Below the pieces are notes generated by a model. It saw only the letters and a program-made list of their open reading frames with translations, did no database searches and was not told the origin of the DNA. A DNA stretch of 19,965 nucleotides from NCBI GenBank assembly GCA_046727435.1, contig JBKPCR010000107.1, positions 1 to 19,965 of the forward strand, given 5' to 3'. Numbering within the stretch: position 1 is the stretch's first letter; each line of letters opens with the position of its first letter. Positions 4,996 through 13,850 of this stretch are shown here, piece after piece. Source of the DNA: CAVPRW01 sp046727435 [NCBI: bacterium] (lineage in GTDB: Bacteria; Tectomicrobia; Entotheonellia; J063). Position numbers and translations under genes: made by a program.

Positions 4996-5005
4996 GGAAG
5001 TGGCT

Positions 5006-6598: not shown

Positions 6599-7132
6599 AT
6601 GAAGTTGGGCAGGCGAGAGCAGCTCATGATCATCGCTGGGGTGGTGGCGGTGGCCCTGCTGCTCTTCTATCGTCTCGGCCTGTCGCCAGCGCTTGAGCGG
6701 CTACGCACGCTGGATCGACTGGTGGCCATGAAGGAGCGTGAGCTCCATCAGATGAAGACACTACAGGAAACATATATAGCCCAAAAGCGTCTGATGGAAG
6801 ACGTTAGTCGAAGCTTGGCTCAACGCGGCCCAGATTTCGCAATATTTTCGTTCCTCGAGGACCTGGCCAATAAAACGGGCATTAAGGACAACATCAAGTC
6901 GATGACGCCAGCCCTCACCACCCCAGGTGAGCTGTTTCGCGAGTCATCCGTCGAAATGCGGCTCGAGGGCATCGCGCTGCAACAATTGACGCGCTATCTG
7001 TATGACATCGAGCAGGCCCCCCAACTCTTGCGTGTGCGCCGTATGCACATTAAACCACGACCCGCCAATCCAGACCTGTTGGACGTGACCTTTCAAGTCT
7101 CCACCTTTTACCTCCAGGAAAGGACCAGCTAG
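6599..7132 (+). CDS. gspM: Type II secretion protein GspM (PilO-like)
   Basis: Bitopic inner-membrane protein expected to pair with GspL and stabilise the secretion platform. The 177 residues comprise a short basic N-terminus, one membrane segment (about 9-27), a coiled coil (about 35-75) and a periplasmic ferredoxin-like domain with the typical EGIALQQLTRYLYDIEQ..LLRVRRMHI pattern of PilO/GspM proteins. ATG at 6599 follows an AAGGGAG ribosome site. It is 15 bp after gspL and is the last gene of the operon in this window. No GspN or pseudopilin gene follows. The small size and low sequence conservation of this family make the GspM label less certain than those of gspD, gspE and gspF. Confidence 0.8.
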   Translation: MKLGRREQLMIIAGVVAVALLLFYRLGLSPALERLRTLDRLVAMKERELHQMKTLQETYIAQKRLMEDVSRSLAQRGPDFAIFSFLEDLANKTGIKDNIKSMTPALTTPGELFRESSVEMRLEGIALQQLTRYLYDIEQAPQLLRVRRMHIKPRPANPDLLDVTFQVSTFYLQERTS

Positions 7133-7241: not shown

Positions 7242-7280
7242 GACACGCTGAAGGCCTTGGAAAGGAGCACGGTCATTGCG

Positions 7281-8012
7281 GTGAGGGAGCACTGGTGGTT
7301 GCCGACACGCATCGATGGCGAGGAATGGCTTGATCAGGGCCGTGGGACCCCTGAGGCCATCGACCGGAGCCTCGCAGATCTCGGCCGCATCAATCGCTGG
7401 CTCGGAGGAATGCGAGGCTTGGCGTCATATCTCTACCCGCGTATCCGCAGGTGTCGAACCGACCGTGTGCGTGTGCTCGATCTGGGAGCTGGAGGCTGTA
7501 CCATTCCGGAGGCCATGGCGCGATGGGCACGTCACGCCGCTATCTCACTCCAAATCTATGCGCTAGATCTTCGCCACGCACATCTACGCTGGGCGCGGAG
7601 GAGCTTGCAGGCCTGCCCTGAGATCGTTTTTATTCAGGGTGATGTGCGTGCCCTGCCGTTCGCTGAAGGCAGCGTCGATTTCGTGATCTCTTCGCTTTTT
7701 TTGCATCACTTTACAGCACCAGAACTCACCCAGGTGCTGCCGCAGTGGGCTCGCCTGGCACGCCAAAGCCTCATCATGACCGACCTGGTGCGCCATCCCG
7801 CACCCTATTGGTTCATGAAGGCGACAAGTCCCATATTTGCGCGCAGCACCATCACGCGGCATGATGCCGCGGTGTCGATTCAGCGGGCCTACCGGCCTCA
7901 GGAGTTACAGCGGATTGCGGCAGAGGCTGGGTTAGCACAGGCCCGAGTATACACCAGTTTTCCGTATCGCATGAGCCTCGTCATCGACCACACAGAGCCT
8001 GGTTCTATATGA
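7281..8012 (+). CDS. SAM-dependent methyltransferase (UbiE-like class I fold)
   Basis: Predicted methyl transfer from S-adenosylmethionine to a small aromatic or lipid acceptor; the substrate is unknown. The 243 residues include a leader with ..LADLGRINRWLGG (about 31-43), motif I VLDLGAGG (65-72), the acidic strand end YALDL (93-97), GDVRALPF (120-127) and a FVISSLFLHHF strand. By family recall, this type of methyltransferase with a 'RINR' leader is often encoded beside FAD oxidoreductases in polyketide-type clusters. AAAGGAG lies at 7261-7267. GTG 7281 is the first ordinary start after it, with a rather long 13-nt gap; TTG 7257 precedes the ribosome site and is unlikely. The stop overlaps the next start as ATGA, implying coupled translation. 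Confidence 0.82.
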   Translation: MREHWWLPTRIDGEEWLDQGRGTPEAIDRSLADLGRINRWLGGMRGLASYLYPRIRRCRTDRVRVLDLGAGGCTIPEAMARWARHAAISLQIYALDLRHAHLRWARRSLQACPEIVFIQGDVRALPFAEGSVDFVISSLFLHHFTAPELTQVLPQWARLARQSLIMTDLVRHPAPYWFMKATSPIFARSTITRHDAAVSIQRAYRPQELQRIAAEAGLAQARVYTSFPYRMSLVIDHTEPGSI

Positions 8013-9175
8013 CTGTATGGGATATCGCCGTAATCGGAGGGGGCGTTGCCGGAAGCACCGCCGCCGCGCTATTGGCGCGGCATGGGCTACAGGTGATCCT
8101 CATTGAGAAGGGCACGTTTCCGCGTCAAAAGGTCTGTGGCGAGTTTCTCTCGCCCGAGGGAGCAGGTGTCCTAAGCCGCTTGGGGGTGTGGCCACAGGTC
8201 GAGGCACGCCAGCCGCAACGAATTGATGGCTTCACCTTGACCGCCAGCCGGCGACAAACCCGGCACAGGTTACCCTTTCCTGGTTGGGGCGTGAGTCGTT
8301 GGGTCCTCGACCACCTGCTCTGGGAGCATGCTGTGCGCTCCGGAGTGGCGACCCGAGAGCGCTGCACGGTGGAGCAGGTGACGGGGGATTTTCAGCGCGG
8401 GTTCTCACTGACCTTGCAGCAGGCCGGTCTGTCATCGACGCACATCCGGGCGCGCGCCGTCCTTTGTGCCGCTGGCCGACAATGGCAGCCGCGCGGTCAG
8501 CAGCGGACGCCGCACTACCGCGGGAAGTTACGCTTTGTCGGTCTTAAGGCACACATTCAGGGCGTGCCCCTCGACCGACACGTCGAACTGCATACCATTC
8601 GACACGGATACTGCGGCATGGTCGAGGTCGCCGACGGTGTAACCAACCTCTGTTGTTGGATAAAGGCGGAAGTGCTGCGGCGCGCCGGTGGGACTCCCCA
8701 CCGATTCCTAGTTTCTGCTCTGAGAGAAAATTTGCACCTGTGCCTACGATTGCAGGGCGTCGAACAGGGTGGCATATCGTGGACGACCACCAGCTTTACG
8801 TATGGGAGAACCGTTGCCCCGGTGGTGTCAGAACTCTGGAACATCGGTGACTGTGCCGCGATGGTCGCGCCGCTCACCGGTGATGGCATGGGTATGGGAT
8901 TGCGCGCGGCCGAACTGGCAGCAACGATGATGCTAGGAGTTTTTCGGCAAGAGTCGCCATGGCACCTGGCAATGGCTGAGTACGCACGTCGCTGGCAAGG
9001 GGAGTTTCTGCCTCGCCTCCGGTGGGGTCGAGGCCTGGAAGCCATACTGCTCCAGCCACGACTGGCGTCGCTTGCTTGTGGAGCGGTACATTGGATCCCC
9101 CTGCTCATGAATCAGCTCTATCGGCGGACACGGCAACTCGCTCCCGCCACCGATTCAGCCGTGGAAGCCTTATAG
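8009..9175 (+). CDS. FAD-dependent oxidoreductase/hydroxylase (geranylgeranyl reductase or UbiH-like group)
   Basis: Predicted flavoprotein that hydroxylates or reduces the pathway intermediate. The 388-residue protein opens with a Rossmann dinucleotide motif (GGGVAG, 10-15, with an acidic residue E33 at the end of the second strand). It has KVCGEFLSPEG (42-52), characteristic of the geranylgeranyl-reductase/FAD-monooxygenase group, and the second FAD motif GDCAAMVAPLTGDGMGMGL beginning at 280. There is no W-x-W-x-I-P halogenase motif and no membrane anchor at the N-terminus. The start ATG overlaps the methyltransferase stop by 4 nt, so the two are probably made together. Whether it is a monooxygenase or a double-bond reductase cannot be decided from the sequence. 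Confidence 0.85.
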   Translation: MTVWDIAVIGGGVAGSTAAALLARHGLQVILIEKGTFPRQKVCGEFLSPEGAGVLSRLGVWPQVEARQPQRIDGFTLTASRRQTRHRLPFPGWGVSRWVLDHLLWEHAVRSGVATRERCTVEQVTGDFQRGFSLTLQQAGLSSTHIRARAVLCAAGRQWQPRGQQRTPHYRGKLRFVGLKAHIQGVPLDRHVELHTIRHGYCGMVEVADGVTNLCCWIKAEVLRRAGGTPHRFLVSALRENLHLCLRLQGVEQGGISWTTTSFTYGRTVAPVVSELWNIGDCAAMVAPLTGDGMGMGLRAAELAATMMLGVFRQESPWHLAMAEYARRWQGEFLPRLRWGRGLEAILLQPRLASLACGAVHWIPLLMNQLYRRTRQLAPATDSAVEAL

Positions 9176-9177
9176 CA

Positions 9178-9252
9178 ATGACCGCATTCGCGTCGATGTT
9201 TGCGGGCGCGATGAAAGGCCCATCAGAAACCGAACACTCGCTGCATAGATAG
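9178..9252 (+). CDS. Possible 24-residue small ORF between oxidoreductase and cyclase genes
   Basis: An ATG two bases after the oxidoreductase stop opens a 24-codon frame that closes with TAG 9 bp before the next gene's start. It reads MTAFASMFAGAMKGP.. and is mildly hydrophobic at its N-terminus. The upstream GGAAG is 11 nt away and weak. It fills most of an otherwise unusual 86-bp gap in an operon whose other junctions overlap. I do not recognise it, and chance is a good explanation. Confidence 0.2.
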   Translation: MTAFASMFAGAMKGPSETEHSLHR

Positions 9253-9261
9253 GATACAGTG

Positions 9262-9756
9262 ATGGCGACGAAAACTTTGAAGGCGATGCACACTGAGAAT
9301 GGCATCGAGATCCGTGGGGATATCAAACGCATCTTCCAAGTAGCGGCCCAGGTCAGTAAGTGGCCCGAAATTCTGCCGCATTATCGTTGGGTTCGCGTCT
9401 TGCAGCGCAAGAGGCGGCGCACGACTGTCGAGATGGCGGCCAGGCGGGGACGCATCCCAGTGAGCTGGACTGCGGTGCAGGAGGTCTTCCCATACGAACG
9501 GATCACCTACAAGCATATCAAAGGCTTTACGACTGGTATGGATGTCACATGGTCGTTCAAGCCGATTCAGGAACGGGTGGAGGTAGTCATTACCCACGAT
9601 TTTTCCCTGTCCTGGCCGCTCCTGGGAGATTTCGTCAGCAAATATATCGTGGGAGCCCTATTTGTCAAGCCGATTGCTTCGAGAACACTGCAACACATCA
9701 AGCAGACTGTGGAGTCTGGGCAGATCGTTGGCCGCAGTGCTGAGGGGACACGATGA
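9262..9756 (+). CDS. SRPBCC-family protein (polyketide cyclase/aromatase or COQ10-like)
   Basis: A 164-residue START/Bet v1-like (SRPBCC) domain protein with a hydrophobic pocket. Members shape poly-ketone chains (aromatase/cyclases) or carry prenyl quinones (COQ10). Visible family marks are ..IFQVAAQVSKWPEILPHYRWVRVL near the N-terminus, the strand-rich centre with VSWTAVQEVFPYERITY, and a long C-terminal helix region ..SRTLQHIKQTVESG. I took ATG 9262 because AGGA at 9251-9254 is 7 nt upstream; GTG 9259 is too close. The stop overlaps the ketosynthase start (ATGA, 9753-9756). Pairing with a ketosynthase favours a cyclase role, but this is inference. Confidence 0.8.
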   Translation: MATKTLKAMHTENGIEIRGDIKRIFQVAAQVSKWPEILPHYRWVRVLQRKRRRTTVEMAARRGRIPVSWTAVQEVFPYERITYKHIKGFTTGMDVTWSFKPIQERVEVVITHDFSLSWPLLGDFVSKYIVGALFVKPIASRTLQHIKQTVESGQIVGRSAEGTR

Positions 9757-11006
9757 ATAGGGGACGACAGCGACGAGTTGTGATCACCGGAATGGGGGCG
9801 GTGACGCCGATCGGACATGGTCGAGAGGGCCTCTGGCAGGGGGTTTTGCGGGGGAAATCGGCCGTTCGGCGTGTGTCTGCATTCGATGTCGATGCTTACC
9901 GCTGCCAGGTAGCAGCCGAAGTCCGGGATTTTGACCCGACACCTTACCTCGACAAGAAGCAGTTGAAGCGGCTCGACCGTTATTCACAGTTCGCCGTGTG
10001 CGCGGCCAAGATGGCGGTTACCGACGCCGACCTGCCTGTCGATGCGGAACCCCATGACCAAGTGGGGGTCTGTATCGGCTCGGCTCTCGGGGGCATGATC
10101 ACCGCCGAGGAGCAGCACGGCCAGTTTGCCAGGCGCGGCCTGGGCGGCGTAAGTCCGATGCTGGCGGTAACGGTTTTCGGCGCCGCGGCCTCATGCAATA
10201 TCGCCATCGAGTTCGGTATCACCGGCCCGAACACCGCCAACTGCAATAGTTGTGCGGCTGGGGCGATCGCCATCGGTGAGGCCATGCGCTATATTCAGCG
10301 CGGAGAGGCCGAGGTCATGTTAGCAGGAGGGGTGGAGGCGCCGATCGCCCCCCTGTCTTTCGGGGCCTTCAGCGTCATCCGTGCGATGTCGAAACGCAAC
10401 CATGACCCTGAGCGAGCTTCCCGCCCGTTCGACAAGGGTCGGGATGGCTTCGTCATGGGGGAGGGTTCAGCCATTCTGGTCCTGGAAGAAATCGCGCACG
10501 CCACACGACGTGGCGCGCACATCTTTGGTGAAGTGCTGGGGTATAGCCTGACCAACGATGCCTATCATATGTCGGCTCCCCGCCCGACCGGCTCCCAGGC
10601 CGCCCGGGCGATCGACTTAGCACTCAAAGATGCAGGCCTGCATCCAATGGATATCGATTATATCAACGCGCATGGCAGCTCGACACCGCTTAACGACAAG
10701 AGTGAGACCCTGGCGATCAAACGGATCTTTGGAGCGCAAGCGTCACGTATCCCCATCAGCGGCACCAAGGCCTTATATGGCCATCCATTGGGAGCATCAG
10801 GGGCCATCGAAGCCGCCATTGGGGCGCTAAGCCTGTCGCACGATTATCTGCCGCCGACGATGAATTATGAGATACCGGATCCTGACTGCGACCTCGATTA
10901 CCTCCCGAATGTGGGGCGGGTGGCGCATGCACGATATCTCTTATCGAATTCATTTGGCTTCGGCGGGATCAATGCCTGTCTTGTGTTGGGGCGTTATGGC
11001 GAGTAA
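9753..11006 (+). CDS. Beta-ketoacyl-ACP synthase (KAS II/FabF-like), probably pathway-specific
   Basis: Condensing enzyme predicted to extend an acyl chain with malonyl-ACP. The 417-residue protein is full length for FabF. The catalytic set is intact: nucleophile C167 (in NSCAAG), H307 (HGSSTPLND), K339 and H344 (TKALYGHPLGASG). The C-terminal gate region reads NSFGFGGINA, as in chain-elongating enzymes. The active-site flank NSC differs from the usual TAC of housekeeping FabF. Neither acpP nor fabG is adjacent, and no second ketosynthase (chain-length factor) is present. Translation is coupled to the cyclase gene by a 4-nt overlap. The stop lies 3 bp from the stop of a convergent gene. I leave the symbol blank because this looks like a paralogue in a special pathway. 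Confidence 0.88.
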   Translation: MNRGRQRRVVITGMGAVTPIGHGREGLWQGVLRGKSAVRRVSAFDVDAYRCQVAAEVRDFDPTPYLDKKQLKRLDRYSQFAVCAAKMAVTDADLPVDAEPHDQVGVCIGSALGGMITAEEQHGQFARRGLGGVSPMLAVTVFGAAASCNIAIEFGITGPNTANCNSCAAGAIAIGEAMRYIQRGEAEVMLAGGVEAPIAPLSFGAFSVIRAMSKRNHDPERASRPFDKGRDGFVMGEGSAILVLEEIAHATRRGAHIFGEVLGYSLTNDAYHMSAPRPTGSQAARAIDLALKDAGLHPMDIDYINAHGSSTPLNDKSETLAIKRIFGAQASRIPISGTKALYGHPLGASGAIEAAIGALSLSHDYLPPTMNYEIPDPDCDLDYLPNVGRVAHARYLLSNSFGFGGINACLVLGRYGE

Positions 11007-11009
11007 TGG

Positions 11010-11909
11010 CTAGCGGTAGAATTCAGCGCGATCGATGCCGGTGAGGTGCACTTCATGCATGTCCTCACCCCGCTGGATCGTTAAGGTCAACTCATCACCC
11101 GGACGCATCTTCCACAGGGCTTCATACAACTCCCGACGGCCTGCGATCTCAACATGATCGACCTCAAGGATAATGTCTTTCACTTCGATGCCGGCGCGGC
11201 TGGCAGGGCCGTTCGGGATCAAGCCAATTACCGACACTCCCCCCTCTATCGCTTCGGTGTAAATCCCCACCCATGGCCGCGGCCGACGGCCAGCCACTTG
11301 GCCGAACGTGAGCACGCTGTCCCGGATACCATGGAACAGGTCAATGGGAATGGCCAGGCTCATTTCCTTGGGTGAATTGAGGTTGAGAGAGAGGACCCCG
11401 ATCATCTGACCGAAGGCGTCGAGCAGCGGTCCACCGCCGAAGCCAGGGTTCATGGCTGTCGTCAGAATAGCGCGGTCGAGCATATACTCCCAATAGGCAT
11501 CGAAGGGTCGCAGCGCCGAGATGAAGCCGGGGGACGCCATGCGCTGCGTCTGATCTGTAGCTGCCACAATGATGACATTATCGCCCTCCTGGAGGGCAGC
11601 TGAGCGGCCAAGGGGGACAGTCGGTAGATCACGCGCTGGCGTTTGTAGGATGGCCATGCCGCTTTCAAAGTCTTGGAACAGCAGGGTTGCAGGATACTGC
11701 TGCTGGTCGGGTAGGGTGATTTCAATGGTTCGTGCGCCCATTACCACATAACCCACGGTGAGAATATGGCCCTCGGCATCGATGACCGCTCCCGATCCCG
11801 TGCGCTCAGTTCCCAGGATACGGGCCGAGGGGTGGCGTTGCGGGGTCACGGAGCGGATGCTGACGATTGCGGGCACCACATGTTCCAGAAATTTCAGATA
11901 ATCGTTCAC
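11010..11909 (-). CDS. HtrA/Deg-like protein with PDZ domain, catalytic triad lost (pseudoprotease)
   Basis: A 299-residue trypsin-fold domain (about 1-200) followed by one PDZ domain (about 210-293: WVGIYTEA..GVSVIGLIPNGPASRAGI..GDIILEV-type). The fold is clearly Deg/HtrA, but the three catalytic positions are changed. The HtrA segment ILTNNHVV reads ILTVGYVV (His to Tyr54), the D-x3-D-x-A segment reads DFESGMA (Asp to Gly84), and NPGNSGG reads NPGFGGG (Ser to Gly158). It should therefore not cleave peptides and may act as a chaperone, scaffold or peptide sensor. There is no signal peptide or membrane segment, so a cytoplasmic location is likely. The start is GTG with GGAGG 7 nt upstream. 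It follows the HAD gene by 42 bp on the same strand. Confidence 0.88.
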   Translation of the reverse strand: MNDYLKFLEHVVPAIVSIRSVTPQRHPSARILGTERTGSGAVIDAEGHILTVGYVVMGARTIEITLPDQQQYPATLLFQDFESGMAILQTPARDLPTVPLGRSAALQEGDNVIIVAATDQTQRMASPGFISALRPFDAYWEYMLDRAILTTAMNPGFGGGPLLDAFGQMIGVLSLNLNSPKEMSLAIPIDLFHGIRDSVLTFGQVAGRRPRPWVGIYTEAIEGGVSVIGLIPNGPASRAGIEVKDIILEVDHVEIAGRRELYEALWKMRPGDELTLTIQRGEDMHEVHLTGIDRAEFYR

Positions 11910-12694: not shown

Positions 12695-12723
12695 ATTGTA
12701 CGGTATGGGGGTGCAATGTTCAA
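12695..12723 (-). promoter_or_regulatory. Promoter for the HAD/HtrA-like unit
   Basis: Read on the minus strand, TTGAAC (12723-12718) is followed after exactly 17 bp by TACAAT (12700-12695). These match the sigma-70 consensus at 4/6 and 5/6. It lies about 57 bp ahead of the chosen HAD start. Confidence 0.55.
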
Positions 12724-12743
12724 GCCCTTCGCTGTACCAGCGC

Positions 12744-12772
12744 TTGACAGCTGCAAAGAATCAGCGTATGAA
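12744..12772 (+). promoter_or_regulatory. Promoter for the threonine/serine dehydratase gene
   Basis: A perfect TTGACA (12744-12749) and TATGAA (12767-12772, 4/6) are separated by 17 bp. The element is divergent from the HAD promoter, with only 20 bp between the two -35 boxes. A short palindrome CGCTG-tac-CAGCG (12730-12742) lies between them. The leader to the ATG at 12831 would be about 50 nt. Confidence 0.55.
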
Positions 12773-12830
12773 AGGAATGGAGCTTGATGACCGTCCCTGC
12801 TGCCAGACGATTTCGCCTCGAGGAGGATTT

Positions 12831-13850
12831 ATGTTCCGGCGCCCGACTTTTGCCGATGTCCTGCGCGCCAAGCGCATCGTTAGCCGCTACCTCCCTCGCA
12901 CGCCGTTCCTACCGGCGCTCTCCTTGAGCAAATTATTGGGATTTCAGCTGTACCTCAAATTCGAAAATTATCAGCCCATCGGGGCCTTCAAGGTGCGCGG
13001 GGGACTGAATCTGGTTTCCTCACTGGCGATCGGTGAGCGCGCCCGCGGGGTCATCACTGCCTCGACCGGCAATCATGGGCAATCGATTGCCTACGCGGCG
13101 CAGACCTTTGGGGTACGAGCGGTCATCGTCATGCCTGAGGTGTCCAACCCAGATAAGATCGAGTCCATGGTCAACCTGGGCGCGGAAATCGTCTTCTGCG
13201 GCGAAGATTTCGAGGACGCGCGCTTGAAAGCCGAACAGATGGCCCGTGACCACGGCATGTATTACGTGCATCCGGCCAATGAGCCGCTGTTGATCGCTGG
13301 CGTGGGTACCTACGGCCTGGAAATCGTCGAAGACCTGCCGGAAGTGCAGACCATCATTGTCCCCATCGGGGCGGGAAGCGGGATCTGTGGAACGTCGATC
13401 GTTGCCAAGTCGATCAATCCCCAGATTCGCATCATTGGGGTCCAGGCGGAGAAGGCCCCCAGTGTGTATTGGTCGTGGCGAGAGCAGCGGATGGTCGACA
13501 CACCATCTTGTGACACCTTTGCCGAAGGGTTGGCCACGCGGACCGCTTTTGAGTTACCTTTGAGCATTATGCGCGATTTGGTGGACGATATCGTCCTGGT
13601 CAGTGAAGACGAATTGAAGCAGACCATCGTCCTGCTGCTGGAGAAAGCGCACACCATTGCCGAGGGGGCTGGTGCAGCGTCCACGGCCGCCGCCATCCAG
13701 CTGAAAGACCGCCTGCAGGGCCAGACAGTAGCCTGTGTTCTGAGCGGCGGGAACCTGCCACTGTCGACGTTGCAGCGTATTATCGCTGAAACGCGGCCCT
13801 CATTGCTAGAAGCCTCCATCGGCAAGACATGCGACAGGGCAGACAAATAG
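12831..13850 (+). CDS. Threonine/serine dehydratase-like PLP enzyme (no ACT regulatory domain)
   Basis: Fold-type II PLP enzyme expected to deaminate L-threonine or L-serine to the 2-oxo acid. The 339 residues contain the PLP lysine K54 in IGAFKVRGG, the Asn loop STGNHGQ, the phosphate-binding glycine loop GAGSG (180-184) and the late Ser in VLSGGN. There is no C-terminal ACT domain, so it resembles the short catabolic type (TdcB/EutB-like) rather than feedback-regulated biosynthetic IlvA. Serine racemase or hydroxyaspartate dehydratase are alternatives. ATG 12831 is preceded by a strong AGGAGG; a longer GTG-start frame from 12696 would run through the promoter and is rejected. It is the first gene downstream of its own promoter, with selA following at 174 bp. 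Confidence 0.85.
   Translation: MFRRPTFADVLRAKRIVSRYLPRTPFLPALSLSKLLGFQLYLKFENYQPIGAFKVRGGLNLVSSLAIGERARGVITASTGNHGQSIAYAAQTFGVRAVIVMPEVSNPDKIESMVNLGAEIVFCGEDFEDARLKAEQMARDHGMYYVHPANEPLLIAGVGTYGLEIVEDLPEVQTIIVPIGAGSGICGTSIVAKSINPQIRIIGVQAEKAPSVYWSWREQRMVDTPSCDTFAEGLATRTAFELPLSIMRDLVDDIVLVSEDELKQTIVLLLEKAHTIAEGAGAASTAAAIQLKDRLQGQTVACVLSGGNLPLSTLQRIIAETRPSLLEASIGKTCDRADK

Follow-up and report, generated by a model that had tools for sequence, protein, structure and literature searches.

Four adjacent genes at positions 7281–11006 of contig JBKPCR010000107.1 (assembly GCA_046727435.1; CAVPRW01 sp046727435, a bacterium of the Tectomicrobia, Entotheonellia) encode a methyltransferase (MT), a flavoprotein dependent on flavin adenine dinucleotide (FAD, used below also as the name of this protein), a protein of the SRPBCC fold and a ketosynthase (KS). 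We have analyzed them computationally within the whole stretch of 19,965 nucleotides, called the window in the following. The reading that we favor, with a probability of roughly 0.45, is that they constitute a variant alkylresorcinol/hierridin-type lipid operon, in which the ring would be supplied by a type III polyketide synthase (PKS) encoded elsewhere, while KS and SRPBCC would be accessory and handle the acyl chain. A preliminary description of the same DNA had presented the set as self-contained and as a candidate for an undescribed pathway. The results given below suggest that a known lipid pathway is varied here, and not that the pathway is entirely new. The resorcinol- or quinone-like lipid that had been suggested as the product is retained, as the relatives of MT and FAD indicate aromatic or phenolic lipid chemistry.

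Results and Discussion

The features of the locus are the following.

7281–8012, + strand: MT, S-adenosylmethionine-dependent methyltransferase, HidA-like; GTG start, with a TTG at 7257 also open.
8009–9175, + strand: FAD, FAD-dependent oxidoreductase/hydroxylase, HidB-like, of the geranylgeranyl-reductase/halogenase-like flavoprotein superfamily.
9176–9261: gap of 86 bp, separating MT-FAD from SRPBCC-KS.
9262–9756, + strand: SRPBCC, START/helix-grip protein; cyclase, or acyl-chain/quinone-binding.
9753–11006, + strand: KS, FabF-type β-ketoacyl-ACP (acyl carrier protein) synthase; C-H-K-H intact, with unusual surrounding residues.

The four genes and their two ATGA overlaps, at 8009–8012 (MT/FAD) and 9753–9756 (SRPBCC/KS), are located where they had been described. 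The set had also been called an operon; given the 86-bp gap between FAD and SRPBCC, it is more aptly regarded as two pairs of overlapping genes on the same strand, a four-gene transcript being unproven.

MT matches Pfam Methyltransf_25 with 57 bits, and its best NCBIfam model is PRK06202, with 145.9 bits against a cut-off of 243; the same model is matched by four of five tested methyltransferases (116–309 bits) from cassettes, that is, clusters in which MT and FAD genes accompany a type III PKS (denoted CHS, for chalcone synthase-like, in the gene orders). Profiles for the cassette MT and FAD were built from seven plasmid cassette members, with the window proteins excluded. On the former, MT obtains 169 bits, compared to 145–271 bits for 11 cassette MTs from genomes and at most 74 bits for 19 other methyltransferases, although not every cassette is captured cleanly by the profiles, some members scoring low when left out (range 67.8–278 bits for MT and 25.4–245 bits for FAD).

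The gene neighborhoods of the MT relatives agree with this. On plasmids, all of the best 30 of 32 records have a type III PKS match within ca 2.3 kb, as found by comparing the coordinates of two match tables by eye. These 30 comprise 13 from Sphingobium, 6 from Deinococcus, 4 from Novosphingobium and 7 single records of other genera. Whole-genome searches covered Pseudomonadota only; there, an MT model that includes the window MT yields 11 strong matches in 398 genomes (153–273 bits), the next score being as low as 80 bits, and each of the 11 sits in the order CHS-MT-FAD. Four weaker matches (51–74 bits, of hundreds) have no CHS within ca 5 kb, one of these regions ending at a contig end. MT is thus close to the type III PKS-associated group, and from these comparisons it appears to be a HidA-like member of the cassette group; the compared sequences did not include the hid proteins, and the designations HidA-like and HidB-like are based on the gene order in common and on the relatives from cassettes. 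Because the 30 listed plasmid relatives and the 11 Pseudomonadota matches adjoin a type III PKS, the set looks incomplete without a ring-maker, and the view of it as self-contained is not supported. One of the six listed Deinococcus plasmid records with MT beside a type III PKS match (L010) has the order PKS-MT-FAD.

FAD matches Pfam FAD_binding_3 and, with 98 bits, the model GG-red-SF, which has a cut-off of 158.8. On the cassette-FAD profile it reaches 239.8 bits, compared to 243–300 bits for the FADs of the 11 genome cassettes. Since the flavoprotein of an isonitrile cluster reaches 196 bits on the same profile, this score can be regarded as supportive, not diagnostic. Among the best 30 of 82 plasmid records related to FAD, 24 have a type III PKS near them and 6 have none seen; 23 of the 24 come from the CHS match table, in which 60 of 177 records are listed, and that of Caballeronia from annotation and Pfam. 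The best plasmid relative of FAD among the matches listed is found on the Hymenobacter plasmid NZ_CP040937.1 (2122–7131), where the flavoprotein is accompanied by an isonitrile synthase and a TauD dioxygenase.

Operons with this pair of tailoring genes have been described. According to the sections of PMC10896814 used here, 58 of 96 type III PKS genes of Planctomycetota lie in a methyltransferase–oxidoreductase–PKS operon, the PKSs tested from such operons make alkylresorcinols, and co-expression of the methyltransferase and the oxidoreductase of Gimesia maris leads to a single methylation of the alkylresorcinol. The cyanobacterial hidABC genes (methyltransferase, oxidoreductase, type III PKS) make hierridins, and 47 hierridin-like clusters are given in the portion of PMC8086630 used here. 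The window has the MT and FAD families and the MT-FAD order in common with the hidABC-type cassettes, and its 4-bp MT/FAD overlap is the same as in the cassettes of Paludisphaera and Paracoccus. Unlike the hidABC-type cassettes, on the other hand, it has no adjacent type III PKS, and SRPBCC and the FabF-like KS come next.

The missing components were searched for with home-made ACP, CHS and KS profiles, run on the 300 stop-to-stop open reading frames (ORFs) of at least 40 amino acids in the window. No ACP (best score 2.2 bits), no type III PKS (4.0 bits) and no second KS or chain-length factor (CLF; the runner-up to KS obtains 1.2 bits) was found in these 300 ORFs, which is in line with the preliminary description. 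As positive controls for the ACP profile, three of four fabF loci gave 77–83 bits, while the fourth (L121, unannotated) gave none. The absence of ACP applies to the window only.

A type III PKS, MT, FAD, an ACP and a NodE-like ketosynthase occur in one cluster on plasmids of Novosphingobium (NZ_CP009292.1) and Caballeronia (NZ_CP049319.1), a possible type II/III hybrid; the PKSs of both clusters match Pfam Chal_sti_synt. The Caballeronia cluster, with the order CHS-MT-FAD-ACP-KS, and the related Novosphingobium cluster resemble the window in having MT, FAD and KS together. They differ from it in that CHS and ACP are kept and that no SRPBCC is annotated or matched there. These two clusters demonstrate that an accessory KS and an ACP can occur together with a type III PKS, MT and FAD.

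From these comparisons we infer the following course of the reaction. MT would methylate a long-chain resorcinol-type ring, and FAD would hydroxylate or oxidize that ring to yield a methoxy-hydroquinone or quinone lipid. The ring would most likely be provided in trans by a type III PKS whose gene lies elsewhere in the genome. KS may extend an acyl chain using the fatty-acid ACP of the cell, and SRPBCC may bind the acyl chain or the phenolic/quinone lipid. If this is the case, the tailoring pair of the hid type need not adjoin its synthase, and operons of this kind would escape searches that take the type III PKS gene as their starting point.

The ketosynthase had been described as complete, and the residues C167, H307, K339 and H344 are indeed present and aligned with those of FabF. 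With 537.2 bits on TIGR03150 (fabF), KS passes the cut-off of 493.75 and can by this curated model be classified as FabF-like. For comparison, FabFs from fab operons obtain 608 bits (Thermomicrobium, beside fabD) and 645 and 651 bits (Monoglobus and E. coli, beside acpP), an unannotated FabF of Acetoanaerobium 636 bits, and two secondary FabF-like enzymes 538 and 558 bits, while KS-alpha, NodE and the Caballeronia cassette KS obtain 441, 428 and 424 bits, respectively. The best matches of KS are FabFs, with the highest identity, ca 50%, to that of Monoglobus. KS thus resembles FabF in passing the cut-off and in having its catalytic residues intact. It differs in its lower score, in its unusual active-site neighbors and in lying outside a fab operon, with SRPBCC and a trypsin/PDZ gene as neighbors and no adjacent acpP or fabD.

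The unusual residues near the active site are A166S, F136M, F137L, S337G and L345P, and the corresponding motifs are NSC (mostly TAC in the FabFs shown), ML instead of FF at 136–137, and GTKALYGHPLG instead of STKSMTGHLLG. Nine KS residues at columns conserved to at least 85% are absent from all 50 other catalytic KSs. In an earlier divergence count, KS departed at 22 of 112 conserved columns, compared to a highest count of 9 among 36 FabFs, 27 of which showed no departure, but the columns had been picked from the same 36 FabFs. When the conserved columns are picked from Pseudomonadota only, KS departs at 43 of 150, and eight FabFs of other phyla depart at 26–42. The idea that the divergence of KS greatly exceeds that of every housekeeping FabF was rejected on the basis of these numbers, and overall divergence alone does not separate KS from the FabFs of distant phyla.

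Whether KS falls inside the FabF clade, a check proposed in the preliminary description, could be addressed in part: the curated FabF model is passed, but the trees leave KS unplaced. In the first tree, from which 12 of 50 rows were left out (redundant FabFs), KS lies outside KS-alpha (95/91) and is unplaced among FabFs and other KSs. In the second, from which 24 of 54 KS rows were left out (long or redundant), KS is again unplaced; its grouping with KS-alpha has a support of 17/1 and was not adopted, while a kinship to KS-alpha is not rejected by this tree either. The cassette KSs of Caballeronia and Novosphingobium group with NodE (100/99). The proposal that KS belongs with the KSs of CHS clusters was dropped as not demonstrated (p-value of the approximately unbiased test, p-AU, 0.275). 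On the Streptomyces plasmid NZ_CP109562.1 (316–6221), a FabF-like enzyme (558 bits) is located beside a protein with an SCP2 sterol-binding domain, an FAD oxidoreductase, a P450 and an ACP, so that there, too, a FabF-type KS accompanies a lipid-binding protein.

SRPBCC matches Pfam Polyketide_cyc with 54.2 bits, and its best match in the PDB is BexL, followed by TcmN-like cyclases. On small home-made profiles it obtains 56 bits with the RatA/COQ10-like one and 42 bits with the ARO/CYC one; the former consists of 12 Pseudomonadota matches, to which we apply the label RatA/COQ10. Judged by these scores, SRPBCC lies between the RatA/COQ10-like and the ARO/CYC proteins. It was aligned pairwise, in a single alignment, with 2kf2, a cyclase that has Y, R and R at residues 35, 69 and 82. 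The equivalents of Trp28 and Tyr35 are kept, the latter as Tyr41, while those of Arg69 and Arg82 are Gln73 and His85, respectively. Tyr35, Arg69 and Arg82 are the catalytic residues of TcmN according to the part of PMC9014085 used here, in which an acyl-ACP-binding SRPBCC protein is also described. Acyl-ACP binding would suit an operon without ACP. Because the equivalents of the TcmN Arg69 and Arg82 are lost, cyclization by SRPBCC, though possible, is unsupported by the residues. Of the tailoring and cyclizing steps previously assigned to the set, the former can thus be kept for MT and FAD as a tailoring pair, while the latter is unproven.

No matches to SRPBCC were obtained on plasmids, and 53 of the 398 Pseudomonadota genomes gave weak ones, at most 35.3 bits. 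At 20 of these loci (up to ca 1.5 kb on each side), tblastn gave no match to MT, FAD or KS. A single-sequence structure prediction of SRPBCC had a predicted local distance difference test (pLDDT) value of 42.7 and was not used. Compared to type II aromatic PKSs (KS-alpha/CLF/ACP with ARO/CYC), the window is similar in that a KS lies beside an SRPBCC-fold protein with a flavoprotein nearby. It is different in that CLF and ACP are missing, KS scores as FabF, and SRPBCC does not have the TcmN arginines.

It is important to point out that several observations weigh against the favored reading. MT and FAD of the window are distant from the cassette members, with 20–31% identity, and in the trees they are found near the cassette rows, nesting without firm support. 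The nearest relative of FAD among the plasmid matches listed comes from the isonitrile cluster, which has no PKS. The second KS tree neither demonstrates nor rejects a kinship of KS to the NodE/Caballeronia/Novosphingobium cassette KSs (p-AU 0.275). In the sections of PMC10896814 used here, the role of the oxidoreductase is left open, so that the function of FAD is undemonstrated even in the model case. Finally, the CHS search covered the window only, and the type III PKS elsewhere in the genome is one that we infer.

Another scenario, which we consider doubtful, is that the two pairs are unrelated. MT and FAD would then tailor a lipid, and SRPBCC and KS would be an ordinary fatty-acid unit, consisting of a FabF, possibly the main one, and a RatA/COQ10-like lipid-binding protein. 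The 86-bp gap separating the pairs is consistent with this, as are the passing of the curated FabF equivalog cut-off by KS, its best matches being FabFs, and the slightly higher score of SRPBCC on the RatA/COQ10-like than on the ARO/CYC profile. However, KS is not in a fab operon and is 71–114 bits below the three fab-operon FabFs (537 vs 608, 645 and 651 bits), and at nine well conserved positions it has residues found in none of the 50 other KSs. Unlikely, in our judgment, is the option that KS and SRPBCC have replaced the type III PKS in a hid-type phenolic lipid operon, giving a minimal type II resorcinol-lipid route without CLF. Here, a single FabF-derived KS would elongate a fatty acyl-ACP several times without reduction, on borrowed fatty-acid ACP, after which SRPBCC would guide the ring closure and MT and FAD would finish the ring. 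KS and SRPBCC are located downstream of MT-FAD, where hidABC and the planctomycete operons have their PKS gene, but CHS comes first in the 11 Pseudomonadota cassettes, so the position says little. The lack of CHS in the window, the intact catalytic residues of KS with the unusual neighbors (A166S, F136M, F137L, S337G, L345P) and some ARO/CYC similarity of SRPBCC (BexL) would also fit. The lack of CLF and ACP in the window and the loss of the TcmN Arg69 and Arg82 equivalents, on the other hand, argue against such a replacement. Moreover, KS scores as FabF, its divergence (43/150) is hardly above that of the eight FabFs of other phyla (26–42), and no relative with the four-gene order was found among the records searched. 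If the ring were nevertheless formed by KS and SRPBCC, resorcinol or quinone lipids would have a minimal route that involves neither CLF nor a type III PKS.

We have also considered that MT and FAD might act on another aromatic core, in a novel pathway that leads to a quinone or pigment and has no relation to resorcinols. The isonitrile-cluster flavoprotein as the best listed relative of FAD would be compatible with this, and so would the 6 of its best 30 relatives that have no CHS match seen nearby (with 60 of 177 CHS records listed). However, all 30 of the listed plasmid relatives link MT with a type III PKS, which makes this pathway quite improbable.

The MT-FAD-SRPBCC-KS order has no relative among the records searched. 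Four scans of viral contigs gave no relatives, and a scan of genome contigs with the FAD protein returned one irrelevant Janthinobacterium oxidoreductase. In a DNA search, the rsmH of the window gave short matches only, in 12 of 60 Pseudomonadota genomes, so the window is probably not close to the sampled Pseudomonadota. In the publication listings searched, no paper was recognized as describing this exact gene set, which is not proof of its absence from print.

As to the surroundings, gspM ends at 7132, leaving a gap of 148 bp to MT, and the stop of a convergent trypsin/PDZ gene ends at 11010, with 3 bp left between it and the stop of KS, so the set starts after gspM and ends 3 bp before a convergent gene just as had been described. 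Upstream of MT, on the same strand, there is a type II secretion block (Pfam secretin/GspD, T2SSE, T2SSF, PilM/T2SSL-like and T2SSM). Beyond the trypsin/PDZ gene follow a HAD hydrolase, a PALP enzyme, SelA, SelB, MraZ and RsmH (Pfam MraW methylase). A pattern scan is uninformative: it gave two promoter-like sites and three terminator-like ones, and shuffled sequences give similar numbers. The G+C content is 55–62% in 18 of 19 1-kb steps of the window and 51.5% in the remaining one, and the four genes are not distinct. The GspL-like gene at 5000–6580 matches PilM and, C-terminally, PilN (Pfam). The PALP-family ORF at 12696–13850 is read from a TTG and probably has an overextended N-terminus, as the Pfam match begins only at residue 65.

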